A stretch of DNA of 32,891 nucleotides from Colwellia sp. (GTDB lineage Bacteria > Pseudomonadota > Gammaproteobacteria > Enterobacterales > Alteromonadaceae): positions 1-32,891 of the forward strand of contig JABSOX010000059.1 of the NCBI GenBank assembly GCA_013215655.1. Reading direction: 5' to 3'. The notes beneath the pieces were generated by a model. It saw nothing but the letters and a program-made list of their open reading frames with translations, did not search any database and was not told the DNA's origin. Both the position numbers and the translations under genes were made by a program. Each line of letters begins with the position of its first letter. Within the stretch, counting starts at the first letter, position 1. Of the stretch, positions 7,206-32,570 are shown one piece after another.

Positions 7206-7238
7206 AAAATCAGCTGTATGTCCAATACAGCTGATTTT
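7206..7238. terminator. Strong hairpin terminator between tsx-like gene and malic enzyme
   Basis: A perfect 14-bp stem (AAAATCAGCTGTAT with its complement) encloses a 5-nt loop and is flanked by A and T runs. It can stop transcription coming from the tsx-like gene on the minus strand and lies just upstream of the malic enzyme start. Confidence 0.8.
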
Positions 7239-9613: not shown

Positions 9614-9672
9614 TCTTAACTGATTGGCAATTTGTACTAATGAACACTATAGATAAGTTTGTGGACAATAAT

Positions 9673-9687
9673 TTCCACTATGTGAAA
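9673..9687. promoter_or_regulatory. Motif A operator upstream of hpt
   Basis: TTCCAC-TAT-GTGAAA style palindrome (positions 9673-9687, half-sites separated by 3 bp). It lies only 17 bp before the hpt start codon, where binding would block transcription or sit on the start site. It is the same motif as the three copies between iclR and bhcB and the one before azgA. Confidence 0.6.
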
Positions 9688-9704
9688 TCAAAAGAGACGT
9701 TATC

Positions 9705-11949: not shown

Positions 11950-13386
11950 TTAAGTTAGAAATATAAATTTGGCGATGAACAGAGCCGTCAGCGCCCAAAC
12001 ACCTTTAGAAATTTCTTTGGACTTACCTGCCCCAACTTTAAGTACAGTGTAAGTAATAAAGCCAAAGGCAATACCATTAGCAATAGAAAATGTAAACGCC
12101 ATCATTACCGTCGTACATACTGCTGGTGCATATTCAGTTAAATCTTCCCAGTCTAACCCTTTAAGGGAGCTCATCATTAACATAGCTACATAGATAAGCG
12201 CACCATCAACGGCAAAACCTGGCAGCATTTGAGCAAGAGGCAAGAAGAACATGCCAACTGCGAATAATAGCCCTATCGTAACGGCGGTTAACCCGGTGCG
12301 GCCACCAACTGAAACACCTGCTGCTGATTCAACATAAGAAGTTACCGGAGGACAACCAAAAGCTGTGCCAATAACAGAAGAGATTGAGTCCGCCTTAAGC
12401 GACTTACTTAGCCCTTTAATTTTACCATTTTCGTCTTGTAAGTTTGCACGTTCAGCAACGCCCATTAACGTGCCTGCGGTGTCGAAAATATTAACAAATA
12501 AGAAAGTAACGATCACTGGGATTAAAGCCACTTGAAAAGCACCGGCTATGTCTGCTTTCCACAGAATAGGGTCAAGTGCTGCAAAATCAGGAACTGCTAA
12601 CAATCCTTTATAGGCAACAAAACCTGAATCTGGAGCAAAAGATTTAGCCGCTTCAGCAACCACAAAGAAATCAGTTGGTAGCAACCAAGTCATGGCAAAT
12701 GCAATGAATGTGGTTGCCGCGATACCAATTAACACTGCACCAAATACTTTACGATAACTAAGCACAGTGATTAATAAAAAGCTTAAAAATCCTAGTGCCG
12801 GTGCTTCTGGGCCAAATTGGCCAAAACCAAAGTGAGTTAGATCAGCTAGTGCAACCACGTTATCCGGATTTGCAACAACAATACCAGTGAAACGAAGCCC
12901 AATAAAACCAAGGAACAAACCAACACCTGCGGTCATTGCCAGCCGCAAGCTCATGGGAATACTATCTAACATCCATTCTCGCAAACGAGTGACACTCATC
13001 AGTACAAAAATAACGCCTGATAGAAATACTGCACCCAAAGCAATTTCCCAGCTATAACCCATCGAACCGACGACAGAAAACGTAAAAAATGCATTGAGTC
13101 CCATTCCTGGCGCAAGACCTACCGGCCAGTTAGCGTAAAGCCCCATTATGATTGTTGCTATAGCTGCACCAAGACAGGTTGCAAGGAATAAACCGTCAAA
13201 AGGCATTCCTGTTTTAGACATGATGATAGGGTTTAAAAACATAATGTAAGACATAGTGACGAAGGTTGTTAAACCTGCCATGAGCTCAGTTTTTACCGTG
13301 GTATTATGTTCAGACAGCTTGAATAGTCGTTCTATTAAACCGACCTTACTGGCTTGTTTTTCGTAACTTTTACTAACCTGTTCCAT
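11950..13386 (-). CDS. AzgA-type purine permease (NCS2 superfamily)
   Basis: A 478-residue inner-membrane permease with about 12-14 hydrophobic segments. TELMAGLTTFVTMSYIMFLNPIIMS near residues 34-58, NWPVGLAPGMGLNAFFTF near 85-105, FVNIFDTAGTLMGVAERA near 298-315 and the FGCPPVTSYVESAAGVSVGGRTG segment near 343-365 identify the AzgA branch (adenine/guanine/hypoxanthine permeases). It should import the bases that the deaminases, Hpt and xanthine dehydrogenase use. Its 606-bp upstream region is shared with the SulP gene and holds a motif A operator and a motif B copy whose direction points toward this gene, though 445 bp away. Confidence 0.92.
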   Translation of the reverse strand: MEQVSKSYEKQASKVGLIERLFKLSEHNTTVKTELMAGLTTFVTMSYIMFLNPIIMSKTGMPFDGLFLATCLGAAIATIIMGLYANWPVGLAPGMGLNAFFTFSVVGSMGYSWEIALGAVFLSGVIFVLMSVTRLREWMLDSIPMSLRLAMTAGVGLFLGFIGLRFTGIVVANPDNVVALADLTHFGFGQFGPEAPALGFLSFLLITVLSYRKVFGAVLIGIAATTFIAFAMTWLLPTDFFVVAEAAKSFAPDSGFVAYKGLLAVPDFAALDPILWKADIAGAFQVALIPVIVTFLFVNIFDTAGTLMGVAERANLQDENGKIKGLSKSLKADSISSVIGTAFGCPPVTSYVESAAGVSVGGRTGLTAVTIGLLFAVGMFFLPLAQMLPGFAVDGALIYVAMLMMSSLKGLDWEDLTEYAPAVCTTVMMAFTFSIANGIAFGFITYTVLKVGAGKSKEISKGVWALTALFIAKFIFLT

Positions 13387-13593
13387 AACTACAGTTCTCT
13401 TATTGATTGAATATTAAGGCCGGTTTTTTATATATTTTAAAGTATGACCTGTTAATTGCCGAACTACCGATTACAAGGTACCAGCGACCGTTGCTAACTT
13501 ATAGAAAGAGGCTGTGTTAGACCCTTTTTCTTTCTAGCTTACTCAATAAAACACAAATAAATCTCAAAGTTAATAAGTAAAATAATTTACTTA

Positions 13594-13608
13594 TTCCACA
13601 TAGTGAAA
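13594..13608. promoter_or_regulatory. Motif A operator upstream of azgA
   Basis: TTCCAC-ATA-GTGAAA, the same 6-3-6 palindrome as the sites between iclR and bhcB. It lies 208 bp upstream of the azgA start and 385 bp upstream of the SulP start. Confidence 0.6.
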
Positions 13609-13830
13609 CCCTTCTCTAGTATACGACATACCCATTATAATTGACGGTAATAGAAAATTTCAGAGCCCCTTTTTACGTAGTGGCCTTAACTAGATTAAAT
13701 TAGTAATCTAAGGATTCATTATCGTTTGATTTAAGAATGTCCTAACCTTTTCCTCCTTTATTCGCAATTGACGTTCTGATGTTATCTGCCTATTTATATT
13801 GTAGTCAGCACACCAATCCTATACCTAAAC

Positions 13831-13992: not shown

Positions 13993-15606
13993 ATGCTTTC
14001 TTTATCACATTTTAATAAACAAACGATTAAGGGCGACATTTTTGGCGCGTTAACATCGACTATTGTTGCATTGCCTTTTGCACTGGCGTTTGGTGTAACA
14101 TCAGGAGCAGGCGCAAGTGCGGGAATTTATTGTGCGATTATAACAGGGCTATTTGCTTCATTGTTTGGTGGTACCAATCAACAAATATCAGGCCCTAATA
14201 CTGGATTAACCGTTGCTATGGTGGCCATACTAACCAGTTTTGTTGCGCAATCTCCTGAACACGGCATCGCAGCAGCATTCACTGTGGTAAGTTTAGCCGG
14301 ATTATTCCAGATGTTATTTGGTATTTTCAAATTAGGAAAGTACTTTATTTTAGTTTCATATCCCGTTATATCCGGTTTTACTTCCGGTATAGGGGTATTA
14401 ATAATCCTTTCACAAATCGAACCGTTATTTGGTAGTACTTTTTCTGATCTAAAACTGACAGTTAATACATTAATGAACCCTACTACATTACTGGGTTTTG
14501 CTTGTTTATTAGTGCTATTTTTATGGCCACAAAGATTCGGCCGAATAGTGCCCGCCAGTATTATTGCAGTAATTGCCGCGACCCTATTCTTCGTATTTAC
14601 CGGTGTTGACTTACCAGTTGTTGGCGCCATTTCCAGCGAACTCCCCTCATTCAGTATGCCTGTATGGGAAAGTAGTTTGGCAAGTGAGATGATCAAATCA
14701 GCGCTATTAATTGCCACGCTAAGTACTTTAGATTCGTTAATGACATCCCTAACGGTTGATAGTATCAGCAATGAATTACATAACTCAGACCAAGAGTTAG
14801 TAGGTCAAGGCATTGGTAACTTTGTAGCAGGTTTATTCGGTGCATTGCCAGGTGGCGGTGCAACCATGCGTACGGTTACTAACCTAAGGGCTGGCGGTAC
14901 AACGCCTTTGTCGGGTATTTTACACGCGCTTTTTATTCTAGCTATTGTCTTGTGGGCTGGTGAGTACACAGCATATATACCTGTAGCTGTTCTCGCCGCA
15001 ATATTAACCCATGTAGGAATAAGCATCATTGATTGGAACTTCCTTAAACGTATTCATCAGGTACCATTATTCAGTGCTGCCTTAATGGTATCAACCATGG
15101 TTATGTCTGTTGCCTTTGATTTAGTTACTGCGGTATTGATTGGCGTATTTATCGCGAACCTAGTAACTATTCGCCGCTTATCTGAAATACAGCTAGACAA
15201 CATAAACCTATGCACAGCAAAAGACGCAGACCACCTCTCAACACCTGAAAAACTGTTACTTACTTCGATAGATGACCACGTATTATTACTTAACATATCA
15301 GGCCCCATTGGCTTTGGTGTTGCTCGAGGATTAAAACAGAGTGTTTCAAAAACGGATCAAAATAAAACCTTGCTGATAGACTTTACAGATGCTCGTTTTG
15401 TTGGCATTACCAGCACCATTGCCATTGAAGAAATTATTGTTAGTTATCAAAATGAAGGAAGAGAAATATTGCTATCAAGTGTTTGTGAACGTGTACGAAG
15501 TGATTTTAATAAACTAAAGTTACTCGAGAAAATCCCTGCAAAACATATTTTTGATAACAGACTAGATGCGCTTAATTATTTAAAACAGAAGATTAAAATC
15601 ACCTAG
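13993..15606 (+). CDS. SulP-family anion transporter with C-terminal STAS domain
   Basis: A 537-residue membrane protein. The N-terminal two-thirds has about 12-14 hydrophobic segments with SulP features (KGDIFGALTSTIVALPFALAFGVTSG, then GGTNQQISGPNTGLTVAM near 60, LDSLMTSLTVDSIS near 247 and LPGGGATMRTVTNLRAGG near 285). A STAS domain covers about residues 420-530. SulP proteins carry sulfate, bicarbonate, or dicarboxylates such as succinate; the substrate here is unknown. Its position between a purine permease and the glyoxylate assimilation genes, with motif B in its upstream region, makes an organic anion linked to this pathway a fair hypothesis. A hairpin terminator separates it from the convergent GlcG-like gene. 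Confidence 0.9.
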   Translation: MLSLSHFNKQTIKGDIFGALTSTIVALPFALAFGVTSGAGASAGIYCAIITGLFASLFGGTNQQISGPNTGLTVAMVAILTSFVAQSPEHGIAAAFTVVSLAGLFQMLFGIFKLGKYFILVSYPVISGFTSGIGVLIILSQIEPLFGSTFSDLKLTVNTLMNPTTLLGFACLLVLFLWPQRFGRIVPASIIAVIAATLFFVFTGVDLPVVGAISSELPSFSMPVWESSLASEMIKSALLIATLSTLDSLMTSLTVDSISNELHNSDQELVGQGIGNFVAGLFGALPGGGATMRTVTNLRAGGTTPLSGILHALFILAIVLWAGEYTAYIPVAVLAAILTHVGISIIDWNFLKRIHQVPLFSAALMVSTMVMSVAFDLVTAVLIGVFIANLVTIRRLSEIQLDNINLCTAKDADHLSTPEKLLLTSIDDHVLLLNISGPIGFGVARGLKQSVSKTDQNKTLLIDFTDARFVGITSTIAIEEIIVSYQNEGREILLSSVCERVRSDFNKLKLLEKIPAKHIFDNRLDALNYLKQKIKIT

Positions 15607-15700: not shown

Positions 15701-16141
15701 TTAGTTATAATTATGAGTAAATGCATCGACTCCTGCTTGAGCACAGCCTAAATCTTGCGCTGGAGAGCCTGAACTTACCCCAATACCACCGACAACCTTG
15801 CCATTAGAAACAATTGGCAAGCCTCCACCAACAATACACATCCGGCCACCTAATGCTGTATGAATACCGAATAGATTATTTTCGTGAACGGGTATACAGG
15901 CTTGATTAAATTCATGTGTGCCCTTACGAGCCGATGCAGCAGTAAAAGCCTTATCTTGAGATATGGTCACACTATGTACTTTACCGCCATCCATTCGTTC
16001 AAATGCAATTAAATTACCTGATTCATCGACCACGGAAATACACATAGGAATACCGAGTTCGTTTGCCTTATGCACTGCACCGCAAATGATCGTTTTAGCT
16101 TCTATTTGGTTTAACCGATTAATAATTAGCATGTTTTTCAC
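15701..16141 (-). CDS. GlcG/HbpS-family small protein
   Basis: A 146-residue single-domain protein of the GlcG/HbpS (heme-binding-like, DUF336) family. ANELGIPMCISVVDESGNLIAFERMDGGKVHSVTISQDKAFTAAS and the glycine-rich GGRMCIVGGGLPIVSNGKVVGGIGVSSGSPAQDLGCAQAGV are typical. In many bacteria such genes sit beside glycolate oxidase (glcDEF) or other glyoxylate genes, but their molecular role is not settled. Here it lies 169 bp downstream of the IclR-family gene on the same strand and may be in its operon. No signal peptide is seen, so it should be cytoplasmic. The local context supports a link to glyoxylate metabolism. Confidence 0.85.
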   Translation of the reverse strand: MKNMLIINRLNQIEAKTIICGAVHKANELGIPMCISVVDESGNLIAFERMDGGKVHSVTISQDKAFTAASARKGTHEFNQACIPVHENNLFGIHTALGGRMCIVGGGLPIVSNGKVVGGIGVSSGSPAQDLGCAQAGVDAFTHNYN

Positions 16142-16310: not shown

Positions 16311-17075
16311 CTAACTTTTAACATAACCCAGTTCGATTGAGATCGAATTCCCAGCCTTTATTAAGTCTTTTACCCATTCATCTTTGCGTCTTTCGATTGG
16401 AGCAGATACAGATAACCCTGCTACTACTTCTCCGTATTTGTCATACAAAAGTACACCAATACATCCCACGCCTATTTCTGCTTCTTCATTATCTAAAGCG
16501 AAACCTTTGTCAACACAACACATACATTCTTGCTCTAGAGACTCAATTGTAGAAAATGTTTTACGGGTATAGGCAGGCAAGTTTGTGCGTTGAGCATAGC
16601 CAATTATCCCCTCCTTCCCTTCCATTCCTAACATCATTTTACCTACACCGGTGACATGTAAAGGAGCACGACTACCGATAATTTGTTGAACATGCATCAT
16701 TCTATGTGGAATGGCTTTTTCTACATAAATAACCACGTCACCTTCTCGTGCGGTCAGGTTAATTGTCTCACTAAACTTATCCCGCAGCTTTTCCATATAA
16801 GGCTTTGCTACCTTACGAAAATCAATATCCTTGTATTGATAGTTGCGTAATCGGATTAGTCGCCCACTTAATTGATATTTGTTTGTATTGTCTCTATCAA
16901 CAAAATGATTATCGATGAGCGAGTGTAATATTCGAAAAGCTGTAGAAGGCGCCAAATTGGTATCAGCACTAAGTGCTTTTAAGGTAACAGGCATGGAATA
17001 ACGCGAAATGGCATCAAGTAACAATGCTGCCCGATCAATCACTTGAATTCTAGATTCTGGGTTGGTTCTTTTCAT
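16311..17075 (-). CDS. IclR-family regulator, candidate BhcR
   Basis: A 254-residue protein with an N-terminal winged helix (about 12-75; SRIQVIDRAALLLDAI, then APSTAFRILHSLIDNHFV) and a C-terminal IclR effector-binding domain (GVGKMMLG near 142-149, GFALDNEEAEIGVGCIGVLL near 190-209). It is divergent from the bhcBCD-like genes, as expected for a local regulator. In Paracoccus the beta-hydroxyaspartate cluster is controlled by an IclR-family protein, BhcR; the same arrangement here is the basis of the assignment. Three copies of a palindrome of IclR-like form (TTTCAC-N3-GTGAAA) lie between it and bhcB, and a motif B copy lies 23 bp before its start. The effector is probably glyoxylate or a related compound, by inference only. 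Confidence 0.85.
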   Translation of the reverse strand: MKRTNPESRIQVIDRAALLLDAISRYSMPVTLKALSADTNLAPSTAFRILHSLIDNHFVDRDNTNKYQLSGRLIRLRNYQYKDIDFRKVAKPYMEKLRDKFSETINLTAREGDVVIYVEKAIPHRMMHVQQIIGSRAPLHVTGVGKMMLGMEGKEGIIGYAQRTNLPAYTRKTFSTIESLEQECMCCVDKGFALDNEEAEIGVGCIGVLLYDKYGEVVAGLSVSAPIERRKDEWVKDLIKAGNSISIELGYVKS

Positions 17076-17122: not shown

Positions 17123-17183
17123 CTTATAATTCAATATAAGGTTAAAAACAACAGAAAACTATCATTAAATAGACACTTATTAA

Positions 17184-17198
17184 TTTCACATTGTGAAA
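17184..17198. promoter_or_regulatory. Motif A operator, copy 1 of the iclR-bhcB region
   Basis: TTTCACATTGTGAAA is a perfect palindrome with 6-bp arms and a 3-bp centre, identical to copy 3 at 17284. Confidence 0.7.
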
Positions 17199-17258
17199 AA
17201 CAAAGCTCACCTTAAATCACATACAAAATTATACTTTAAATTTCAGCCTATTAGCGTA

Positions 17259-17273: not shown

Positions 17274-17283
17274 AACAACTATA

Positions 17284-17298
17284 TTTCACATTGTGAAA
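17284..17298. promoter_or_regulatory. Motif A operator, copy 3 of the iclR-bhcB region
   Basis: TTTCACATTGTGAAA, a perfect palindrome identical to copy 1 and 25 bp from copy 2. It lies 140 bp before the bhcB start. Confidence 0.7.
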
Positions 17299-17437
17299 AC
17301 CAACTCAATTGCAGTCAACAATCGTTCTCCTTAAAGTTATTTTTGAAAATATAAGTCAACGCAGGTTGTAAATAAAATAGAAATATATCCGTAAAAGTAG
17401 ATTTACAAAGATTAATACAAAATTTGAAGAGGTAAAT

Positions 17438-18415
17438 ATGAGCAGTTCAACCAAACCGAACATGAACATTCCAAGCTATAACGATGTGTTAGTTGCCCAT
17501 GAGCGTATTAAGCCCTATATCCATGAAACTCCTGTGTTAACTTCTCGATTTTTAAATGACTTGGTTGGCGCTGAGCTGTTTTTCAAATGTGAAAACTTAC
17601 AAAAAGCAGCAGCCTTCAAAGTACGTGGTGCTTGCAATGCCGTATTTGGATTAACAGATGAAGAAGCCAAACTTGGCGTAGCTACTCATTCTTCTGGTAA
17701 TCATGCCTTATCCTTGTCTTATGCTGCAGGACAACGTGGTATTCCGGTTACAGTGGTTATGCCACGTACTGCACCTCAAGCTAAAAAAGATGCCGTTATT
17801 GGTTATGGCGGTATTATTGTTGAATGTGAACCATCAACCAGTTCACGTGAAGCTGTTTTTAGCGAAGTAGTTGCACTATCCGGTGCTGACTTTGTTCACC
17901 CTTACAACGATCCTCGTGTTATCGCTGGCCAAGCGACCTGTTCTAAAGAGCTGGTAAATCAAGTGCAAGATTTAGATACTGTTGTTGCCCCCATAGGTGG
18001 TGGCGGCATGATTTCGGGCACCTGCCTAACGTTATCTACTATAGCCCCACACATTAATATTTATGCGGCTGAACCACTTAATGCTGACGATGCCGCACGC
18101 TCTTTTCAAGCAGGTTATATTATTGCTGATGATGCACCAAATACCGTTGCTGACGGGCTTAAAGTGCCCTTAAAAGACTTGACGTGGCATTTCGTTAAAA
18201 ATTATGTCACTGATATTTTAACAGCGACTGAAGACGAAATTATTGCTGCAATGAAACTGATTTGGATGCGAATGAAAATAATCGTAGAGCCAAGTAGTGC
18301 AGTAACTTTGGCGATCATTTTAAAAAATCCAAACGTATTTAAAGGCAAGCGTATTGGCGTAATTCTTACTGGCGGCAATGTTGACTTAGACAAACTGCCG
18401 TGGATGAACACATAA
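17438..18415 (+). CDS. bhcB: beta-Hydroxyaspartate dehydratase-like PLP enzyme (BhcB)
   Basis: Predicted to remove water from (2R,3S)-beta-hydroxyaspartate, giving iminosuccinate. The 325-residue protein has the fold-type II threonine/serine dehydratase and serine racemase layout: FFKCENLQKAAAFKVRGA with PLP lysine Lys61, THSSGNHA near 83-90 and the phosphate loop APIGGGGMISG near 184-194. On its own it could be a threonine dehydratase or serine racemase. The beta-hydroxyaspartate role rests on the next two genes, a D-threonine-aldolase-like enzyme and an ornithine-cyclodeaminase-like enzyme, which together match the known bhcBCD order, and on the divergent IclR-family regulator. Ribosome site GAGG precedes the ATG. 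Confidence 0.85.
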   Translation: MSSSTKPNMNIPSYNDVLVAHERIKPYIHETPVLTSRFLNDLVGAELFFKCENLQKAAAFKVRGACNAVFGLTDEEAKLGVATHSSGNHALSLSYAAGQRGIPVTVVMPRTAPQAKKDAVIGYGGIIVECEPSTSSREAVFSEVVALSGADFVHPYNDPRVIAGQATCSKELVNQVQDLDTVVAPIGGGGMISGTCLTLSTIAPHINIYAAEPLNADDAARSFQAGYIIADDAPNTVADGLKVPLKDLTWHFVKNYVTDILTATEDEIIAAMKLIWMRMKIIVEPSSAVTLAIILKNPNVFKGKRIGVILTGGNVDLDKLPWMNT

Positions 18416-18491
18416 GCCATATAGGCACTGATATATAAGATAAAAACTCGAACAAATACACTAAATAAAAATTAAAATTTTGGAGAAGACA

Positions 18492-19640
18492 ATGACAAGT
18501 ATAAGTGATTTAGAAGTAGGTTATGACGTTCCCGCGATACCGGGTATGGATGAAGCTGATATTCAAACCCCTTGTTTAGTCGTAGACCTTGATGCACTAG
18601 AACGTAATATTCGTACCATGGGACAATTAGCAAAAGACATGGGCGTTCGTCACCGAGTCCACGGTAAAATGCATAAATCTGTAGATATCGCCTTGTTACA
18701 GGAAAAGTTAGGTGATAGTTGCGGTGTATGTTGTCAAAAAGTATCAGAAGGCGAAGTATTTGCTCGTGGTGGTATTAAAGACGTGCTTATTTCAAACCAA
18801 GTGCGCGATCCAGCGAAGATCGATCGTTTAGCTCGTATGCCAAAGTTAGGTGCTCGCACACTTTGTTGTGTCGACGATATTGAAAACGTAGCAGAGCTAG
18901 CCGCTGCGGTGAAGAAACACGGTACTCAAATAGAGTGCTTAGTAGAAATTGATTGTGGTGCTGGTCGCTGTGGTGTTAGTGAAGGTCTTCCAGTAGTAGA
19001 AATCGCCAAAGCTATCGCCGCTACTCCTGGTCTTAAATTTGCCGGCATACAAGCATACCAAGGCGCAATGCAGCACATGGAAAACTTCTTAGAACGTAAA
19101 GAAAAAATTGATATCGCTATTGCGATGGTCGCGCGCACTATTGACATGTTAAAAGCAGAAGGACTTGAATGTGACATTGTTGGTGGCGGCGGTACCGGTT
19201 CATATTACTTTGAAGGTAGCTCTGGAGTTTTCAATGAATTACAGTGCGGCTCTTATGCTTTTATGGATGCTGATTACCAACGTATTCATGATGCAAAAGG
19301 CGAAAGAATCTCTGAATTTGAAAATGCATTATTTATTTTAACATCCGTAATGAGTCATACAAAAACAGACAAAGCCATTTGTGATGCCGGCCTTAAAGCA
19401 CAGTCAGTAGACAGTGGCTTGCCGTACATTTTTGGTCGTGATGATGTTGAATACATAAAATGTTCTGATGAACATGGCGTTATTTCAGATCCAACTAACG
19501 CATTAAAAATAAATGAAAAGTTAAAGTTAGTCCCAGGTCATTGTGACCCCACCTGTAATATTCACGATTACTATGTCGGTATTCGCAACGGAAAAGTGGA
19601 AAAACTATGGCCTATTTCTGCTCGAGGTAAAGCTTACTAA
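18492..19640 (+). CDS. bhcC: beta-Hydroxyaspartate aldolase-like PLP enzyme (BhcC)
   Basis: Predicted to condense glycine with glyoxylate to beta-hydroxyaspartate. The start is the ATG at 18492 because the GGAG ahead of it is the ribosome site; an upstream TTG lies inside that site. The 382-residue protein belongs to the D-threonine aldolase/DSD1 family of alanine-racemase-fold PLP enzymes: TPCLVVDLDALERNI near 26-40, RVHGKMHKS with the Schiff-base lysine at Lys59, and a C-terminal metal-site motif PGHCDPTCNIHD. The length matches BhcC as I recall it (slightly under 390 residues). Other possible activities are D-threonine or D-serine related, but the neighbours favour the cycle. It follows bhcB by 76 bp. 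Confidence 0.86.
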   Translation: MTSISDLEVGYDVPAIPGMDEADIQTPCLVVDLDALERNIRTMGQLAKDMGVRHRVHGKMHKSVDIALLQEKLGDSCGVCCQKVSEGEVFARGGIKDVLISNQVRDPAKIDRLARMPKLGARTLCCVDDIENVAELAAAVKKHGTQIECLVEIDCGAGRCGVSEGLPVVEIAKAIAATPGLKFAGIQAYQGAMQHMENFLERKEKIDIAIAMVARTIDMLKAEGLECDIVGGGGTGSYYFEGSSGVFNELQCGSYAFMDADYQRIHDAKGERISEFENALFILTSVMSHTKTDKAICDAGLKAQSVDSGLPYIFGRDDVEYIKCSDEHGVISDPTNALKINEKLKLVPGHCDPTCNIHDYYVGIRNGKVEKLWPISARGKAY

Positions 19641-19670
19641 ACGAATTTCCCATTAAAAGTTTTTACACTT

Positions 19671-19774
19671 CTCCCTTTGAGTGAATGTTAATAAGTATTG
19701 GGTATTACCTAACTCATTGCAGCTAGCAATACCAAGGTTTTCCACTGTTAATACTCACCTTTGGGAGCTTTTTT
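19671..19774 (+). terminator. Large imperfect stem-loop after bhcC with T run
   Basis: CTCCC at 19671 pairs with GGGAG at 19763, GAGT at 19679 with ACTC at 19753, and an inner GGTATT with AATACC. A CTTTTTTAT tail follows. It could terminate or attenuate transcription between bhcC and bhcD, leaving bhcD at a different level from bhcBC. Confidence 0.45.
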
Positions 19775-19843
19775 ATCGTTGAACAATGTAGCAATAAGTT
19801 AATCCTTATAAATTAAGCATTCACACATTTAATTGCTATATTT

Positions 19844-19872
19844 TGCCTCCTTTTGATATTAGCTAGGAGGCA
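19844..19872 (+). promoter_or_regulatory. Hairpin sequestering an AGGAGG sequence in the bhcD leader
   Basis: TGCCTCCT and AGGAGGCA form a perfect 8-bp stem with a 13-nt loop. The right arm holds AGGAGG, a full Shine-Dalgarno match, but it lies 22 bases before the bhcD ATG, too far to serve as its normal site; GAGGA at 19881 is closer. The hairpin could regulate ribosome access or mRNA stability. Confidence 0.45.
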
Positions 19873-19892
19873 CATTACTTGAGGAAATCAAC

Positions 19893-20915
19893 ATGGAAAA
19901 TTTAAACCAAAACTTAAACCAAAATCTAATCAAAAATAAAGACAAAGGCGTATCCGTTGTTTCTGAAGCAATATGCGAAGAAATCATGGGCCGTACAGAT
20001 GCTTTCACAGCAGTAGAAAATGTATTTGCCGCAATGGCTAAAAATACCGCCTATAACTTTCCAGTGATACGCGAAGCAATTGGTCATGCCGATGCACTTT
20101 ATGGCTTTAAGTCAGGTTTTGATCGTGACGCTATGGTATTGGGTTTGAAATCAGGCGGTTATTGGCCAGGAAACATAGAAAAAGATCTTACTAATCACCA
20201 ATCAACGATTATTTTATTCGATCCTGATACGGGAAAACTAAAGTCTCTGATTGCGGGTAATTATTTAACCGCTGTACGTACCGCAGCCTCATCTGCCATA
20301 TCAATCGCGCACTTGGCTCGTAAAGATGCCAAGGTATTAGGTATGGTCGGTGCTGGTCACCAATCAACATTTCAGTTAAGAGCGGCAGTGGAACAACGTA
20401 ATTTTGAAAAGGTAGTTTGTTGGAACTTCCATCCAGAGCAGATCCCCAATCTTGCTGCTGTTGCAGAAGAATTAGGTTTACCATTTGAGTCAGTTACACG
20501 TGAAGAACTAGGTGCTCAAGCTGATGTGATTATTACTATTACTTCTGCCTTCGAAGCGCTAATCGATGTCGATTGGATCAAGCCAGGTACCCACATCGCC
20601 TGCATGGGCACGGATACCAAAGGTAAACAAGAAGTGGATGCAAAACTATTAGCTAAAGCAACAGTTTTTACTGACGAGCTAGCACAATCGATTACCATTG
20701 GCGAAGCTCAACATGCGATAGCTTCTGGTTTAATTAAGCAAACTGACATAATACCTATTGGAGAGGTTATTAATGGGTCTAAGGACGGTAGAACAAGTAA
20801 TGATGAAATTACTCTATTTGATGGTACGGGTGTCGGTTTACAAGACTTAGCTGTTGCCTCTGTTGCTGCAGAATTAGCTGAGGCTAAAGGATTAGCGACT
20901 TACTTTAATCTATAA
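19893..20915 (+). CDS. bhcD: Iminosuccinate reductase-like protein (BhcD; ornithine cyclodeaminase family)
   Basis: Predicted to reduce iminosuccinate to aspartate with NADH, completing the assimilation of two glyoxylate. The 340-residue protein has the ornithine cyclodeaminase/mu-crystallin fold: AYNFPVIREAIGHADALYGFKSGFD near 53-77, GLKSGGYWPGN near 84-94, LTAVRTAASSAIS near 125-137, the nucleotide-binding VGAGHQ near 152-157, and HIACMGTDTKGKQEVD. The YNFPVIREAIGH and GYWPGN segments resemble Paracoccus BhcD as I remember it rather than true ornithine cyclodeaminases. The N-terminus has a short duplication (LNQNLNQN). A structured 252-bp leader separates it from bhcC. Confidence 0.85.
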   Translation: MENLNQNLNQNLIKNKDKGVSVVSEAICEEIMGRTDAFTAVENVFAAMAKNTAYNFPVIREAIGHADALYGFKSGFDRDAMVLGLKSGGYWPGNIEKDLTNHQSTIILFDPDTGKLKSLIAGNYLTAVRTAASSAISIAHLARKDAKVLGMVGAGHQSTFQLRAAVEQRNFEKVVCWNFHPEQIPNLAAVAEELGLPFESVTREELGAQADVIITITSAFEALIDVDWIKPGTHIACMGTDTKGKQEVDAKLLAKATVFTDELAQSITIGEAQHAIASGLIKQTDIIPIGEVINGSKDGRTSNDEITLFDGTGVGLQDLAVASVAAELAEAKGLATYFNL

Positions 20916-21029: not shown

Positions 21030-21467
21030 ATGAAACTTAACGTTTATCTTTCAGGTGAAATTCACACCGACTGGCGAGAGAAAATAATCCAAGGTTGCCA
21101 AGCGCATGATTTGGACATTATGTTCACTTCAGCAAATACCAATCATGACAAAAGTGACAGTGCCGGTGATGTACTGGGCAAAGAAGATAAGCCATTTTGG
21201 CGCGACCATAAATCAGCGAAAGTAAACGCATTAAGAACAAATACACTCATTGAAGGTTGCGACATTGCAATCATTCGTTTTGGTGATAAATATAAACAAT
21301 GGAATGCAGCCTTTGACGCTGGCTATTGCGCCGCGCTTAGTAAGCCCTACATTACCTTGCATAGTGAAGAGTTAATTCACCCGCTAAAAGAAGTTGATGC
21401 TGCTGCCCATGCATGGACAACAACAATAATTCAAGTAATAGAAACGCTTAAGTACATCAGTAAATAA
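21030..21467 (+). CDS. YtoQ-family protein
   Basis: A 145-residue protein that matches the YtoQ family: it begins MKLNVYLSGEIHTDWR and has DVLGKEDKPFWRDHKSAKVNALRTNTLIEGCDIAIIRFGDKYKQWNAAFDAGYCAALSKPYITLH. This pattern (an N-terminal Rossmann-like strand with SGEIH, then the R-T-N and DAGY motifs) recalls the nucleoside 2-deoxyribosyltransferase fold, so a nucleotide- or nucleoside-related role is possible, but no function is established to my knowledge. It lies between bhcD and the TetR regulator with its own short upstream region. No signal peptide. It may belong to the bhc transcription unit if the weak terminator before it is leaky. Confidence 0.75.
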   Translation: MKLNVYLSGEIHTDWREKIIQGCQAHDLDIMFTSANTNHDKSDSAGDVLGKEDKPFWRDHKSAKVNALRTNTLIEGCDIAIIRFGDKYKQWNAAFDAGYCAALSKPYITLHSEELIHPLKEVDAAAHAWTTTIIQVIETLKYISK

Positions 21468-21590: not shown

Positions 21591-22217
21591 TTAGCGAATT
21601 CCACAGCCTTTAAGAATTATTTGTGTTAAAGAGGCAACAACCTCTTCAAAATCATCATCATTCATCGCGTCTTTGTTCAGTGCGGCAACAACTTGTACAT
21701 TAAAATCAGCGTAATGTTGCGTTGAACTCCAAATTAAGAATAACAAATGATGTGGGTTAACATTATCGATAAGACCTTGACTGATCCAAGCCTCTATTAC
21801 CGCTACTTTATTATTCAACCAGACTTTGAAATCGCTGTTGAGGTATTCGTTTAATACCGGGGCACCATGGATCAGCTCACTAGCGAATATTCTCGATGCA
21901 TCGGGATCATTCTTTGAATGCATAACTTTTGAACGAATATAAGCACTCAAGGCAGCTTTAGGCTCATGATCCGCATTTAATGTATCGTAGTCTGTATTCC
22001 ATACTTCAATGATATTACTTAATAGTTGCTGGTATAAATCTGTTTTGTCTTTAAAGTAATAATGAATATTTGCGCGAGCTATATTAGCTCGTTCAGCGAT
22101 ACGCTTAATAGATGCGCCTTTAAAGCCATAAGTAACAAATTCCTTTTTGGCGGCATTTAAGATCAACGCTTTATTTTTTTGTCGAATATTACCTTCGGAC
22201 ATTTTATCTTTTGCCAT
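21591..22217 (-). CDS. TetR-family regulator, RutR-like
   Basis: A 208-residue repressor. The N-terminal TetR helix-turn-helix covers about residues 14-60 (ILNAAKKEFVTYGFKGASIKRIAERANIARANIHYYFKDKTDLY). The C-terminal domain resembles the RutR/YcdC branch (MHSKNDPDASRIFASELIHGAPVLNEYL, then LFLIWSSTQHYADFNVQV). In E. coli RutR senses pyrimidines and controls genes for pyrimidine and purine breakdown; a similar role here is inferred from family and location between glyoxylate genes. Ribosome site GTAGGAG lies 5 bp before the ATG. It follows malate synthase on the same strand after a strong terminator, so it has its own promoter. I did not find a convincing RutR-type operator. Confidence 0.85.
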   Translation of the reverse strand: MAKDKMSEGNIRQKNKALILNAAKKEFVTYGFKGASIKRIAERANIARANIHYYFKDKTDLYQQLLSNIIEVWNTDYDTLNADHEPKAALSAYIRSKVMHSKNDPDASRIFASELIHGAPVLNEYLNSDFKVWLNNKVAVIEAWISQGLIDNVNPHHLLFLIWSSTQHYADFNVQVVAALNKDAMNDDDFEEVVASLTQIILKGCGIR

Positions 22218-22370: not shown

Positions 22371-24560
22371 TTAATTTACCGCTTTCAATTCAACACGACG
22401 TTGATGTAGCAATGGCTCGGTATAACCACTTGGCTGCTCTTTACCTTTAAAAATTAAATCCGTTGCCGCTTTAAAAGCAATATTGCTACTAAAGTTTACC
22501 GCCATAGGTTCATAACTTGCGTCCGTTATATTTTGCTTGTCGACTACCGTTGCCATTCGTTCAAGTGACTCCATGACTTGTGCTTTCGTCAAAATACCAT
22601 GGTGTAGCCAATTACAGATGTGTTGACTAGATATTCGTAATGTTGCTCTATCCTCCATACGCCCTACATTATCTATATCTGGTACTTTTGAACAACCTGT
22701 GCCCTGATCAATCCAACGTACTACATAACCAAGCAATCCTTGAACATTATTATCAAGTTCATTTTGAATATCCTGTTCACTAAGCTCCTCTCTCTTATTT
22801 AACAAAGGGATGGTTAATAAGTCAGCTAAATCACAAGTCTTTTTATTTAGGGAAAATTGTTCAATTAATTGGTCTTGAATCTCTGCAACATTTACTCGAT
22901 GATAATGTAATACATGCAAGGTCGCAGCCGTTGGTGACGGAACCCAAGCACAGTTTGCACCTGACAAGGGATGTGCTATTTTTGTTGCTACCATTGCAGA
23001 CATTTCATCAGGAATTGCCCACATGCCCTTCCCTATTTGTGCCTTGCCCTTTAATCCTGCCTGCAATCCAATTCGAACATTTCGTTTTTCATAGGCTGAA
23101 ATCCATTTTTCATCTTTCATTAATCCTTTACGTATCATAGGACCTGCTTGCATACTGGTATGAATTTCATCACCGGTTCTATCTAAAAATCCGGTATTAA
23201 TAAACGCAATACGATCTTTTGCTGCACGGATACATTCTTTTAAGTTTGCTGAAGTTCTACGTTCTTCATCCATTATTCCCATTTTGACGGTATTAGTTGC
23301 TAAACCCAAACACGATTCGATTCTGGTAAATAAATCGTTGCTAAAAGCCACTTCATCAGGGCCATGCATTTTGGGTTTTACTATGTAAATACTGCCTTGA
23401 CGAGAGTTTTTAAACTGGGAGTTACCTTTTAAATCATGCAATGAAATTAGTGTTGTAATTAAACCATCTAAAATTCCTTCCGGTACTTCTTGGTTGTCTT
23501 TTGTTAATACCGCATCATTAGTCATTAAATGACCTACATTACGAATAAATAACAGGCTACGACCCGGTAATATCAACTCTTGATTATCAAGAGTTTTGTA
23601 AGTTCTATCTTTGTTTAAGGTTCTGGTGATTGAAACTCCATTTTTTTCCAAAACTTCCTTTAAATCACCTTTCATTAGGCCTAACCAATTACGATACACA
23701 GCCGTTTTATCTTCAGCATCAACGGCAGCAATTGAGTCTTCGCAGTCTTGGATGGCACTTAATGCGGACTCTAAAATAATATCAGCGACAGAGGCAGGGT
23801 CAGTTTTCGCCACAGGCATACTAGGATCTATCTTAATCTCTATATGTAGACCATTATTTTTAAACAATATAGCACTAGGATTTTGCTCATCTCCGTTATA
23901 AGCAACAAATTTTTCCGGTTCAACTAAGTCTTCTTGTTTACCAGACAGCAGAGTAACAACTAGCTTGGCATTGGCAACTTGATAACTACATACATCCGTG
24001 TGACTACCTGCAGTTAAAGGAATAACATCATCCAAAAACTGACGAGCATAGGCCTGTACTTTTGCACCACGAATTGGGTTATATGTTTTATTCATCTCTG
24101 CGCCATTGTCATCTTTAATAACGTCTGTTCCATACAGCGCGTCATACAAACTACCCCAACGGGCATTTGCAGCGTTGAGTGAAAAACGGGCATTCATTAA
24201 CGGCACTACTAATTGTGGGCCAGCAACAATGGCAACTTCTTCGTCAACATAAGTAGTAGTGACTTCGAAGTCTTCTTTTTCATCAACAATGTAACCAATA
24301 TCAATTAAGAACTGTTGATATTTTTCTTGGTTAAAAGGTTGGTTACTTTCATCTAAATGCCAAGCATCAATTTGAGTTTGAAATTGTGTTCGAGTATCTA
24401 ATAGTGCTTCATTTTTTGGTGTGAACTCGTCAAAAATGTTGGCCAAAGATTGCCAGAAATCCTCTGAGTCTATACCTGTACCAGGGAGTACATCATGTTC
24501 AACCAAATTGTATAAAGACTCTGCAACTTTATAACCGTGTTTAATTACGCGTGTATTCAT
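22371..24560 (-). CDS. glcB: Malate synthase G
   Basis: Condenses glyoxylate with acetyl-CoA to malate. The 729-residue length is that of the single-chain G form rather than the A form of about 540. Diagnostic segments include LNAANARWGSLYDALYGTDVI near 128-148, FIRNVGHLMTNDAV near 335, YIVKPKMHGPDEVAFSND near 390, MGIMDEERRTSANLKECIRAAKDRIAFINTGFLDRTGDEIHTSMQAGPM near 428-476 and CAWVPSPTAATLHVLHYH near 540. It lies between the RutR-like gene and puuD on the same strand as the purine cluster, separated from puuD by a hairpin. It is one of two exits for glyoxylate in the window, and the one that needs acetyl-CoA. Confidence 0.96.
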   Translation of the reverse strand: MNTRVIKHGYKVAESLYNLVEHDVLPGTGIDSEDFWQSLANIFDEFTPKNEALLDTRTQFQTQIDAWHLDESNQPFNQEKYQQFLIDIGYIVDEKEDFEVTTTYVDEEVAIVAGPQLVVPLMNARFSLNAANARWGSLYDALYGTDVIKDDNGAEMNKTYNPIRGAKVQAYARQFLDDVIPLTAGSHTDVCSYQVANAKLVVTLLSGKQEDLVEPEKFVAYNGDEQNPSAILFKNNGLHIEIKIDPSMPVAKTDPASVADIILESALSAIQDCEDSIAAVDAEDKTAVYRNWLGLMKGDLKEVLEKNGVSITRTLNKDRTYKTLDNQELILPGRSLLFIRNVGHLMTNDAVLTKDNQEVPEGILDGLITTLISLHDLKGNSQFKNSRQGSIYIVKPKMHGPDEVAFSNDLFTRIESCLGLATNTVKMGIMDEERRTSANLKECIRAAKDRIAFINTGFLDRTGDEIHTSMQAGPMIRKGLMKDEKWISAYEKRNVRIGLQAGLKGKAQIGKGMWAIPDEMSAMVATKIAHPLSGANCAWVPSPTAATLHVLHYHRVNVAEIQDQLIEQFSLNKKTCDLADLLTIPLLNKREELSEQDIQNELDNNVQGLLGYVVRWIDQGTGCSKVPDIDNVGRMEDRATLRISSQHICNWLHHGILTKAQVMESLERMATVVDKQNITDASYEPMAVNFSSNIAFKAATDLIFKGKEQPSGYTEPLLHQRRVELKAVN

Positions 24561-24657: not shown

Positions 24658-25854
24658 CTATTTTGTGCTCATTTGTTCCAGCCAAATAGCCAACAGGGTT
24701 CGCTCCTCAGCAGTCATTTTTGTTTTGTTCATAAATGGCATATCTTTGGCGTCAATGACTCGTGCTTTTATCCTTGGAGCCCATTGCCTAATTGAAGCTA
24801 TATCTGTAAAAACTACGCCACCTTGCGCTACAGTAAAAATATCATCTGTGTTTTGTATTGAGTGACAGGCACTACAGCGTGTTTCAATAATAGTTTGTAC
24901 TTGAGCGATACTCACTTTATTTTTTAACTGCTCTGCACTGACTTCAAGCTTTGCCGGCGCAATTAAATAAGCTAAAACAATGGTTGCTGCAATCGCACCT
25001 ACGATTATCCCTGGTTGATTTTTACCGAAGTGACGAAGCACAAAGTATTGTCTTATCGCCGCAGTAATTAAGATAAGCGCCATTAATACAATCCAACCGG
25101 CATTGTGGTTGAATGTCATAGGGTAGTGATTTGAGATCATAATAAAAATTACGGGCAAGGTAATATAAGTATTATGTGTTGAGCGAAGTTTGGCATTTAA
25201 ACCATATTTTGAGTCAGGAGTATTACCTGCTTCAACAGCTTTTACCAGCGCACGTTGTGATGGCATAATACCAAAAAATACATTACCTGCCATAATCGTA
25301 CCGATAATGGCTCCCATGTGCATGTATGCACCACGTGCACTAAATATTTGCATTAGTCCGTAGGATAATAAAGTACCAATAATAAGTAAGATAAGCCCTA
25401 GTATTAAGCCATGATCTTTAAGTTTGGTACGGACTAATATTTCATAACACCCCACACCAATTACAATCGATCCTAAACCATATAAAATAGCTTGCATTTG
25501 TGTAAGTTCAGCAACACTTTTATCAATTAAGTATGTTTCTGCACCAACATAAAACATCAATGCCAATAAAAAGAAACCAGTGATCCATGTTGTATAGGCT
25601 TCCCATTTAAACCAATGCAGCATAGATGGCATTTGAGGTGGAGCAAGCTTGTACTTCGCGACTTCATAGAAACCACCACCGTGAATTGCCCATAGATCAC
25701 CAGAAATACCTTTATCAGCTTTCTCTTGTGGTGGTGTTTCTAAATGGTTATCAAGCCATACAAAATAAAATGAAGCACCAATCCAGGCGATACCTGTAAT
25801 AACGTGTGCAAAACGAATGGCCAAATTTAGCCAGTCTGTAATATACGGATCCAT
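24658..25854 (-). CDS. puuD: Membrane-bound cytochrome c urate oxidase (urate hydroxylase) PuuD
   Basis: Oxidises urate to 5-hydroxyisourate and passes electrons to a fused cytochrome c. The start is the ATG at 25854; the upstream TTG is part of the GGAG ribosome site. The 398-residue protein begins MDPYITDWLNLAIRFAHVITGIAWIGASFYFVWLD, has about eight transmembrane segments, and ends in a c-type cytochrome domain with CSACH at 327-331 and a likely axial Met further on (DAKDMPFM). PuuD proteins replace soluble uricase and do not make hydrogen peroxide. It is the last gene of the purine cluster and is preceded by a terminator hairpin after guaD, so it may have its own promoter in the 159-bp gap. 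Confidence 0.93.
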   Translation of the reverse strand: MDPYITDWLNLAIRFAHVITGIAWIGASFYFVWLDNHLETPPQEKADKGISGDLWAIHGGGFYEVAKYKLAPPQMPSMLHWFKWEAYTTWITGFFLLALMFYVGAETYLIDKSVAELTQMQAILYGLGSIVIGVGCYEILVRTKLKDHGLILGLILLIIGTLLSYGLMQIFSARGAYMHMGAIIGTIMAGNVFFGIMPSQRALVKAVEAGNTPDSKYGLNAKLRSTHNTYITLPVIFIMISNHYPMTFNHNAGWIVLMALILITAAIRQYFVLRHFGKNQPGIIVGAIAATIVLAYLIAPAKLEVSAEQLKNKVSIAQVQTIIETRCSACHSIQNTDDIFTVAQGGVVFTDIASIRQWAPRIKARVIDAKDMPFMNKTKMTAEERTLLAIWLEQMSTK

Positions 25855-25977
25855 AAAACTCTCCAATTTTTAATTTATTTTAAATAATTGTTTTATCTGT
25901 TGCCGGATCTGTTCATCGACTGACATTAAACGTTGGTTTGAATAATACTCAAACTTTTTTAAAAATAATTGTAATAA

Positions 25978-26013: not shown

Positions 26014-27312
26014 TTAACTATTAACTTGTATACGTTCGCCCATAATATGGGTCGCTTTGACATGACGCTCATCGCCTAACATGCTTAAGATAAATAGTTT
26101 CTCTGACAAGTTTTTACAATGTTGCATCCGCCTGTCCATCAGCGGCGTCGCATGATAATCCAGCACAATAAAGTCAGCTTCTGCGCCTTTAACAAAATTA
26201 CCTATAGTACCTTCAAGATCTAAGACAATAGCACCTCCCAAAGTGGCCAAATAAAACGATTGGAATGGGCTCAGTTTGTCGCTACGTAGTTGTTGGGTTT
26301 TATAGCCTTCATTGATAGTACTTAACATAGAAAACGTAGTGCCTGCGCCAATATCTGAGCCAAAACCAACATTTACATCAAACTTTTGTGCTTGTTTAAG
26401 GTTAAATAAACCACTGCCCAAAAACAGGTTAGAACTTGGACAAAATGCAATTGATGAATTAGTTTCACCTAAACGCTGACATTCATTATCATGTAAATGC
26501 ACACCATGAGCAAAAACACTACGACGGCCTAATAACTTACTCTTGTCATAAACATCTAAGTATCCATCACTTTCAGGAAACAACTCTTTTACCCAAGCGA
26601 TTTCAGCTTTGTTTTCGCTTAAATGTGTATGCAAATAGACGCTAGGATTTTCAGCAAGTAATTTGCCGGCTTTATTCAGCTGCTCTGTTGAACAGGTAGG
26701 AGCAAAACGCGGAGTAATAGCGTATTGTAAACGGTCAACCTCATGCCATTTCTCAATCAAGGCTTTAGAATCTTGATAGCCAGTTTCTGCAGTATCAGAT
26801 AAGTCTTCAGGACAATTTTGATCCATTAATACTTTGCCACAGATCATGCGAAGTTTTTTCTGTTGAGCAATAGTAAAGAATGCTTCGACTGACTCTTTAT
26901 GTACTGTACCAAATACCAACGCCGTTGTTGTACCTGCTTCTAATAGTTGAGTTAAGAAAAATTCAGCGACACCTTTAGCGTGTTCAAGATCACTAAACTG
27001 CTTTTCAAAAGGAAAAGTATAATTTTCTAACCATTCAAGTAGTTGCTCACCATAAGAGGCGATCATTTCCGTTTGAGGATAATGCACGTGGGTATCGATA
27101 AAACCCGGTATCATTAAGCCATCTTCGTAATGGGTCACTTCAACATTTGCATCTAAGCTTGGTAATAACGTATTTGCATCACCCACTTGCTCAACCAATC
27201 CATCTTTTATAATTAGCAGACCATCTTCGATATACTGATAACTGTCCTCTAACGCAACTTTTGCAGGATCTGCCAAAAAGTGCAGTAATTCCCCACGATA
27301 AACTTTTAACAT
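26014..27312 (-). CDS. guaD: Guanine deaminase
   Basis: Converts guanine to xanthine and ammonia. The 432-residue amidohydrolase carries the metal motif GFIDTHVHYPQTEMI (His75, His77), and the segments SYGEQLLEWLENYTFPFEKQF, THLSEN, FAHGVHLHDNE, SIAFCPSSNLFLGSGLFNL and GFGSDIGAGTTFSML that mark guanine deaminases. It lies between puuD and the small open frame at 27375 on the same strand. Together with the adenine deaminase at 10790 it lets both purine bases enter the urate route. No signal peptide; cytoplasmic. Confidence 0.95.
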   Translation of the reverse strand: MLKVYRGELLHFLADPAKVALEDSYQYIEDGLLIIKDGLVEQVGDANTLLPSLDANVEVTHYEDGLMIPGFIDTHVHYPQTEMIASYGEQLLEWLENYTFPFEKQFSDLEHAKGVAEFFLTQLLEAGTTTALVFGTVHKESVEAFFTIAQQKKLRMICGKVLMDQNCPEDLSDTAETGYQDSKALIEKWHEVDRLQYAITPRFAPTCSTEQLNKAGKLLAENPSVYLHTHLSENKAEIAWVKELFPESDGYLDVYDKSKLLGRRSVFAHGVHLHDNECQRLGETNSSIAFCPSSNLFLGSGLFNLKQAQKFDVNVGFGSDIGAGTTFSMLSTINEGYKTQQLRSDKLSPFQSFYLATLGGAIVLDLEGTIGNFVKGAEADFIVLDYHATPLMDRRMQHCKNLSEKLFILSMLGDERHVKATHIMGERIQVNS

Positions 27313-27545: not shown

Positions 27546-28052
27546 TTAGCTTGGCTTAATGACTAACGAGCCATCCAGTGCTAAAACGTCGCAGTTGTTG
27601 CCGTCACCACCTCGATCAATCACTAAAAAGTCGCTTTCACTGCCTAGCGCTAAACAAAAGTGATGCCAAGTGCCTTTATGATAATTTACCCCTTGATTGG
27701 AGTTGGCGATGAATACTTCAATTTTATTGACATCAAATTCACCAGCAGGAGCTACCACAATTAAGTATGAGTTTGAGCCCAATGGAATGAAAGCTTGGCT
27801 ACCATAGGGGTGTCGTTCCATCATTTTTATTGCTATTGGTTGAACTAATGGCGTTGAACGAAAAATATTGACCAATACATGACCATGCTTATCACCAACA
27901 TCTACCTTAGCTAAATCGTGGTAACGCTGAGTATAGCCATCATTAATTGCAAAGTTATTAACTTCACCTTTGGCTTCAATAACATTGCCAAAGGCACTAA
28001 AGCCTTCGCTTGTTAATGGTTTTGGTTTAATCAATGGCAGTTTGTCAGTCAT
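27546..28052 (-). CDS. allA: Ureidoglycolate lyase
   Basis: Splits (S)-ureidoglycolate into glyoxylate and urea. The 168-residue protein has the AllA cupin-like pattern: LTSEGFSAFGNVIE near 13-26, HGHVLVNIFRSTP near 56-68, MERHPYGSQAFIPLGSNSYLIVVAPAG near 78-104 and NYHKGTWHHFCLALG near 123-137. It starts 8 bp after the hiuH stop and is probably translated from the same message. It is the step that releases the glyoxylate used by malate synthase and the bhc-like genes. Confidence 0.94.
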   Translation of the reverse strand: MTDKLPLIKPKPLTSEGFSAFGNVIEAKGEVNNFAINDGYTQRYHDLAKVDVGDKHGHVLVNIFRSTPLVQPIAIKMMERHPYGSQAFIPLGSNSYLIVVAPAGEFDVNKIEVFIANSNQGVNYHKGTWHHFCLALGSESDFLVIDRGGDGNNCDVLALDGSLVIKPS

Positions 28053-32561: not shown

Positions 32562-32570
32562 CTTAGTCAC

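Follow-up and report, generated by a model that had tools for sequence, protein, structure and literature searches.

What becomes of the glyoxylate carbon in a purine-catabolic locus that also carries genes of the beta-hydroxyaspartate cycle (BHAC)? The question is raised by a stretch of Colwellia sp. DNA of 32,891 nucleotides (contig JABSOX010000059.1 of assembly GCA_013215655.1; the whole stretch is called the window here), in which bhcB, bhcC and bhcD lie among genes for purine uptake and breakdown. The BHAC is a recently discovered carbon-saving pathway of four genes, three of which are present here. We give a probability of roughly three in four to the reading that the locus is purine-catabolic and that its carbon branch is the beta-hydroxyaspartate pathway without BhcA. 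On its gene content, the arrangement is best taken as a real bhcA-less variant of the known BHAC that is tied to purine breakdown. That the genomic coupling of bhc to purine catabolism is specific is supported by co-occurrence, by physical linkage that recurs in two classes of proteobacteria and by a shared predicted operator.

The initial annotation had named three successive plus-strand genes as bhcB, bhcC and bhcD, and these names hold under the strictest identity test that we applied to them, the curated equivalog cut-offs of NCBIfam, which all three proteins exceed (coordinates and scores of all features are collected in the table below). The same scores rule out identities as threonine dehydratase, D-threonine aldolase and ornithine cyclodeaminase. 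Comparison with characterised enzymes, proposed at the outset as a check, is in agreement: among all PDB sequences the top match of BhcC is 6QKB, a D-3-hydroxyaspartate aldolase, and that of BhcD is 6RQA, an iminosuccinate reductase, both presumably from Paracoccus, while BhcB matches serine racemases in the PDB and other fold-II enzymes related to them. Both segments that had been pointed out in BhcD, YNFPVIREAIGH and GYWPGN, were found. The start of bhcC is equally likely to be TTG 18480 or ATG 18489. Two observations on BhcC relatives may be added. One genome with a true BhcC also encodes a second BhcC-like protein (G260:C1:2515282-2516382) that scores 437 bits, under the cut-off. In four Colwellia loci (L054-L057), BhcC belongs to another lineage, with 83% identity to the window BhcC and a separate branch of support 100, and the iclR gene stays near that of the window (87-89%); a gene replacement is possible there.

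The cycle is incomplete as encoded, a point that was overlooked when the locus was first described as carrying the Bhc cycle. No window protein exceeds the NCBIfam cut-off for BhcA, the nearest homologue (8492-9613) reaching 210 of 650 bits. Genome-wide profile searches covered the window genome (G000), with only two homologues, neither above the cut-off, and the relative G008, with none above it. Since bhcA is absent, glycine must come from another enzyme, and it is most likely supplied, in place of BhcA, by the class V aminotransferase of the alanine-glyoxylate aminotransferase (AGXT) type at 8492-9613. An identity as BhcA was rejected for this protein, which shares 29-32% identity with BhcAs, whereas four other BhcAs share 63-64% with the Defluviimonas BhcA used as query. 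PucG was rejected as well, because the protein ranks closer to AGXT in the PDB search and an allantoicase is present in the window; no search for allantoate amidohydrolase was made in the rest of the genome. BhcC exceeds its cut-off in 12 of the 246 genomes of the window's family; an AGXT homologue with 83% identity or more occurs in all 12 and in only four BhcC-negative genomes, each of which is positive for the ureidoglycolate lyase AllA. The 83% threshold was set post hoc (the closest match under it has 80%), and weaker homologues are widespread (139 of 246 genomes at E 1e-100). The window genome itself has a second AGXT homologue, 76% identical to the first.

The lack of bhcA ahead of bhcB is common to the window, G008 and 15 named loci of Colwellia, Shewanella and Thalassotalea (L035, L036, L038-L046, L054-L057). 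bhcA precedes bhcB in the Marinomonas, Amphritea, Motiliproteus and Bermanella loci, and it is also found in the alphaproteobacterial loci whose upstream side is in view, except L086. That locus, from Rhodovulum adriaticum, has bhcR and bhcBCD; no bhcA was found between them, and the spacing seems too small for one.

That purine uptake and breakdown genes surround bhcBCD was confirmed by the identification of a permease, deaminases, hpt, the enzymes from PuuD to AllA, and XdhC. The purine-to-glyoxylate set via allantoicase is complete (puuD, uraH, uraD, allB, alc and allA), with uraH named by reading and allB by context; xdhAB lie beyond the window and adjoin the same locus in G008 and G245. 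Across the family, each of the 12 BhcC-positive genomes has AllA, as do 32 of the 234 others (Fisher p 2.7e-10, not corrected for relatedness; a 43-bit match in G090 was not counted). AllA lies no more than 25 kb from BhcC in 11 of the 12, and G230 has it on another contig. The window genome has no Gcl at E 1e-100, and Gcl exceeds its cut-off in none of the 12 and in two of the 32 AllA-positive, BhcC-negative genomes (the search covered 44 of 45, G090 being left out); mutual exclusion of Gcl and bhc is weakly shown. The purine locus takes three forms. In the first (G186), gcl stands among puuE, allA, puuD and uraH, together with hyi, tartronate semialdehyde reductase-like and glycerate kinase-like genes named by reading starts. 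In the second (G069), iclR, AGXT, hpt, permease and SulP genes are present and bhc is not, and the third, with bhcBCD, is that of the window, G008, G221, G237, G245 and G260. On the simplest reading, bhcBCD was gained or lost by a purine locus in which AGXT and IclR were already present.

Genomes of the family also bear on a different source of glyoxylate, in which bhcBCD would mainly serve glyoxylate from glycolate, isocitrate lyase or glycine, as in Paracoccus, the purine neighbourhood being incidental. Glycolate use is the described role of the BHAC (PMC11323563), and GlcD-like proteins occur in some relatives. However, not one of the 12 BhcC-positive members has a GlcD that attains the cut-off, three showing no match at E 1e-30 and nine showing weaker matches, and the AllA counts above likewise speak for purines as the source. 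In the window genome, the best GlcD match has 111 of 567.9 bits; FMN-type glycolate oxidases were not sought.

Further evidence comes from the intergenic regions. The initial annotation saw an IclR-family gene standing as bhcR does. Its divergent position is indeed that of bhcR, but the product scores only 150.8 of 350 bits for the NCBIfam BhcR model. It keeps the oxygen-binding Gly160, Asp212, Ser239 and Ser241 of the glyoxylate pocket and has Val at position 161 (A161V), where IclR has Ala and BhcR has Ile; its hydrophobic patch, Met/Val/Ala/Val, is unlike that of IclR, AllR or BhcR (PMC11323563, Table 1). A second BhcR-like trait, a palindrome before the bhc operon, is also present, as two copies 100 bp apart in the iclR-bhcB gap, conserved amid unconserved flanks. 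The motif is found in all 21 gammaproteobacterial bhc upstream regions that were aligned to build a weight matrix (L055 and L058 were omitted). In the window, the consensus has full matches in this gap and besides only at 9673 and 13594, with a one-mismatch match at 9117, inside AGXT. A search with 17 bases gave six readings at four places, against 0.36 expected in shuffles, and the matrix gave four sites of at least 14 bits, a threshold chosen after the alignment had been seen, against a control mean of 0.035 and a largest count of 1 (200 simulations). Over 33 loci (662,056 bases), it gave 87 such sites against 0 or 1 in 10 control sets; three of the 87 are counted twice, L046 and L129/L130 being the same genome (G237).

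Sixty-four of these sites lie in the iclR-bhc gap, partly by construction. The other 23 comprise nine between the purine permease and SulP genes, 12 directly behind AGXT or before hpt, one before xdhA (G245) and one before glcG (L048). The permease site is present in eight of the 10 genomes with the permease in view, including G260, where more sequence confirmed it, and the site behind AGXT in 10 of the 11 loci that cover that stretch, L133 being the exception; it lies 13-15 bp ahead of hpt wherever hpt follows. The bhc-less G069 has both. Purine uptake is probably co-regulated with bhcBCD, and a single IclR regulon for purine uptake, hpt and BHAC is predicted; a predicted operator common to bhcB and the permease argues against an incidental neighbourhood. 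The same consensus matches in 16 alphaproteobacterial loci, at positions that were not checked one by one. The predicted operator also stands directly behind the AGXT stop codon where hpt is missing (L035 18892 and 18944, L036 2129, L040 2568, L056 19611, L124 1426, L129 3966). A reading of the palindrome as a CRP site was set aside, its half-sites standing in the opposite order to those of the CRP pattern, and a scan of sigma-70 promoters and terminators gave no more matches than in shuffles.

Linkage to purine genes recurs in the Alphaproteobacteria. The family f71, sampled as one genome per genus, was taken as Rhodobacteraceae in the wide sense, one member being identical to L114 and others lying nearest to named Rhodobacteraceae, Marivita and Paracoccaceae. 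BhcC was found in 73 of its 159 genomes at E 1e-180 (64 above cut-off), and 70 of the 73 have AllA at 150 bits or more. AllA lies within 10 kb of BhcC (1.6-6.9 kb) in 27, a lower bound given many draft genomes, and within 25 kb in 29; 26 of the 27 are among the 64, the other being G784. Six of the 27 were inspected, and each holds additional purine genes (among puuE, uraH, puuD, ureidoglycine aminohydrolase and a permease); five carry bhcABCD, and G784 has only a lone BhcC-like gene under the cut-off. This last gene (L143, G784:C11, ~2452; 61% identity, 658 bits) sits between ureidoglycine aminohydrolase and permease genes, with bhcA, bhcB and bhcD not found near it, and its product is perhaps an aldolase with a different function in the breakdown of ureides. 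Outside the window's family, AllA distances were taken in 80 of the 92 BhcC-positive genomes, the 12 omitted all being Rhodobacteraceae-type. Of the seven among the 80 that lie outside f71, four have AllA, and in one of them (G406) it is no more than 10 kb away from BhcC. A glcD search of the 80 (79 outside the window's class) matched three, none above cut-off, at an E-value of 1e-150 that was too strict for most.

Among 80 named loci fetched with the window BhcC (flanks up to 10 kb, several shorter; open reading frames read in 19 of the 80), bhc has purine enzymes as neighbours in 19 loci and a glcDEF homologue in one. The sole purine gene is that of ureidoglycine aminohydrolase in L060 and L093 and allA in L070; the set overlaps the family genome sets (G245 = L044, G778 = L114). 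A quick BhcC tree was made of 86 rows with one distant outgroup, and 14 of its 83 inner branches have strong support. At least 13 changes of the purine-neighbour label are required on it, and four for the presence of bhcA; the repeated purine linkage again argues against a chance neighbourhood. Seven annotated plasmid records were read, and four (Sulfitobacter, Defluviimonas, Leisingera and Pseudosulfitobacter) have purine genes beside bhcABCD; an eighth record carries no annotation. Relatives of bhcC occur on many plasmids (118 records), among them those of Pseudosulfitobacter and Leisingera; 21 records are typed conjugative, and some also carry purine genes. The coupling had been presented as undescribed; no paper on it was found among the matches listed, but it is not unique, as Rhodobacterales database records annotate bhcABCD beside ureide and urate genes. 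This linkage makes the idea of a purine-fed BHAC both stronger and less unusual.

Several findings weigh against a tie between bhcBCD and purines. The best GlcD-like match among the 12 BhcC-positive family members, in G008, reaches 536.5 of 567.9 bits, and glycolate oxidase genes stand beside bhcABCD in a Sinorhizobium meliloti plasmid record; the R. pomeroyi and Paracoccus marcusii records have neither purine nor glycolate oxidase genes by bhc. Several Colwellia have no purine enzymes within 10 kb of bhc (in G245, AllA is 20 kb away), and neither do 46 of the 73 f71 genomes have AllA within 10 kb: it is missing from three, on a separate contig in 34 and farther off in nine, seven of the 73 at more than 25 kb on the same contig. 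AGXT also stands in the bhc-less purine locus of G069 and therefore need not have arisen for the Bhc cycle, and in G187 and G221 it lies 0.5-0.8 Mb from bhcC. The regulator falls short of the BhcR cut-off. The permease site of at least 14 bits is absent in G221 and G237, and no operator of at least 12 bits was found upstream of the purine enzyme operon in the window (the xdhA start being outside it) or before xdhA in G008 (L028). Taken with the evidence above, these points leave an origin of the glyoxylate in glycolate, isocitrate lyase or glycine unlikely. Slightly less likely still is that most of the glyoxylate from purines is consumed by malate synthase G (with malic enzyme) and by AGXT, which would make glycine from it, bhcBCD being a minor side branch or else serving external 3-hydroxyaspartate breakdown or glyoxylate detoxification: malate synthase G and malic enzyme are both encoded inside the locus, bhc is evidently dispensable for purine use in kin such as G069, and Gcl above cut-off is also missing in 30 of the 32 AllA-positive, BhcC-negative genomes, but malate synthase alone yields no net C4 without an acetyl-CoA source, and two strong predicted operators stand ahead of bhcB.

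In the purine-fed BHAC that we favour, purines would enter through the PF00860 permease and be oxidised to urate and allantoin, from which allantoicase and AllA would release urea and glyoxylate. The AGXT-type aminotransferase would convert part of the glyoxylate to glycine, most likely with alanine or aspartate as donor. BhcC would then condense glycine with glyoxylate, BhcB would dehydrate the product to iminosuccinate and BhcD would reduce this to aspartate, steps suggested by strong orthology, and a general aminotransferase would return aspartate to oxaloacetate. The IclR protein would sense glyoxylate and act through a single palindromic operator on bhcBCD, purine uptake and hpt. Alongside this route, glyoxylate could be burnt for energy by way of malate synthase G and malic enzyme. 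Because both enzymes are encoded in the locus, a dual fate of glyoxylate is likely, with the BHAC for C4 supply and malate synthase with malic enzyme for oxidation. The initial proposal that purine carbon is assimilated without spending acetyl-CoA would accordingly apply to the BHAC branch only, malate synthase G probably using acetyl-CoA for part of the glyoxylate.

Table. Genes and predicted operators of the window, in order of position
Feature	Coordinates	Strand	Basis
malic enzyme	5891..7225	-	542 bits, residues 36-438, to NADP-malic enzyme NF009501; under cut-off 1178
Tsx-like nucleoside channel	7342..8181	-	PF03502 28.6 bits, cut-off 27.2
AGXT-type class V aminotransferase	8492..9613	+	PF00266; 1VJO (alanine-glyoxylate aminotransferase) top PDB match, 343 bits
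predicted IclR operator, behind AGXT	9670..9690	.	20.0 bits; 15 bp before hpt
hpt, hypoxanthine phosphoribosyltransferase	9705..10244	+	TIGR01203 above cut-off
add, adenosine (or adenine) deaminase	10790..11797	+	NF006850 and TIGR01430 above cut-off
purine permease	11950..13386	-	PF00860 Xan_ur_permease
predicted IclR operator, purine permease-SulP gap	13591..13611	.	19.7 bits
SulP-family anion transporter	13993..15606	+	nearest model BicA, 510 of 880 bits
GlcG/HbpS-like protein	15701..16141	-	PF03928
IclR-family regulator, predicted glyoxylate-responsive	16311..17075	-	HTH_IclR and IclR_C; divergent from bhcB
predicted IclR operator 1, bhcB promoter	17181..17201	.	24.3 bits
predicted IclR operator 2, bhcB promoter	17281..17301	.	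26.4 bits; 100 bp from operator 1
bhcB, beta-hydroxyaspartate dehydratase	17438..18415	+	325 aa; NCBIfam NF045641 582.7 bits, cut-off 550
bhcC, 3-hydroxy-D-aspartate aldolase	18480..19640	+	386 aa from TTG; NF045642 716.2 bits, cut-off 690; 6QKB 633 bits
bhcD, iminosuccinate reductase	19893..20915	+	340 aa; NF045643 573.7 bits, cut-off 500; 6RQA 408 bits
YtoQ-family protein	21030..21467	+	TIGR03646 above cut-off
TetR-family regulator, RutR-like	21591..22217	-	193.6 of 368 bits for RutR
glcB, malate synthase G	22371..24560	-	TIGR01345 1100.8 bits, cut-off 989
puuD, membrane urate oxidase	24658..25866	-	PF06181 417 bits
guaD, guanine deaminase	26014..27312	-	TIGR02967 above cut-off
allA, ureidoglycolate lyase (glyoxylate-releasing)	27546..28052	-	NF002954 230 bits, cut-off 212
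uraH, 5-hydroxyisourate hydrolase	28061..28402	-	113-aa open reading frame, YRGS end; named by reading; relatives by similarity
uraD, OHCU decarboxylase	28458..28979	-	TIGR03180 above cut-off
alc, allantoicase	28986..30053	-	PF03561, two repeats
allB, allantoinase	30202..31557	-	PF01979; role from context
xdhC, xanthine dehydrogenase accessory protein	31554..32570	-	PF13478, PF02625

Some features of the locus and its relatives deserve mention in their own right. Past the Pfam urate oxidase domain, the C-terminus of PuuD shows a CxxCH haem motif by reading, a trait of cytochrome-linked urate hydroxylases. In G008, a urea transporter gene (PF03253; L028 17046-18038) lies near bhcD and matches alphaproteobacterial AmiS/UreI-type genes; by-product urea may be let out through it. 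Two Shewanella loci (L036, L040) have the same order as the window with 71-91% protein identity, a likeness that suggests block transfer between families.

The literature approaches this coupling from several sides. That glyoxylate arises from purines and allantoin is remarked in a 2024 paper (PMC11323563), which also assigns the BHAC an important share in the turnover of marine glycolate, in good part from its genes and proteins. Purine use with glyoxylate as the carbon product has been reported for SAR11 (PMC11698098), and an allantoin-inducible glycerate route for P. aeruginosa (PMC12694930). Among the matches listed from the open-licence literature, represented by titles and the starts of abstracts, no paper joins BHAC genes with purine catabolism, and the accessible portions of PMC11166783, PMC9723591, PMC12599240 and PMC6963729 do not join them either. 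Were a large fraction of bhc clusters wired to purine glyoxylate, counts and transcripts of bhc genes would not report glycolate use alone, and there would be a carbon-conserving route by which bacteria recycle nucleic-acid carbon in the sea. The BHAC is now used in metabolic engineering, and the locus would offer a naturally occurring form of it that lacks BhcA. We see an even chance that, in many marine bacteria, the BHAC is chiefly the carbon-recovery arm of purine catabolism, and that a Colwellia-type purine locus, already equipped with AGXT and a glyoxylate-sensing IclR, acquired bhcBCD but not bhcA and runs them with AGXT, one IclR regulon tying together uptake, salvage and BHAC.

Among known systems, the BHAC of Paracoccus denitrificans (BhcR, BhcABCD) is matched here by orthologues of BhcB, BhcC and BhcD and by a divergent IclR-family gene. 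Paracoccus has a potential palindromic BhcR site before bhcA (PMC11323563), so that both systems have a palindrome before the first bhc gene, although the two palindromes were not compared. Unlike P. denitrificans, whose BHAC is described for glycolate, the window has no bhcA, its regulator is under the BhcR cut-off and its bhc genes are embedded among purine genes. The joining of purine or allantoin genes to a glyoxylate-assimilation module is shared with the allA-allR-gcl-hyi-glxR-allB locus of E. coli, which also has an IclR-family glyoxylate sensor (sensing: PMC11323563), and with the allantoin-inducible gcl cluster of P. aeruginosa (PMC12694930). In both of these, however, the module is the CO2-releasing glycerate pathway, whereas the window has bhcBCD in its place. 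The bhcR-bhcABCD clusters on the plasmids of Leisingera, Sulfitobacter, Defluviimonas and Pseudosulfitobacter resemble the window in placing the BHAC beside purine catabolism; unlike the window, all four keep bhcA, bhcR is listed in three (not Sulfitobacter), and PuuE is present in two of the four and AmiS/UreI-type genes in three.

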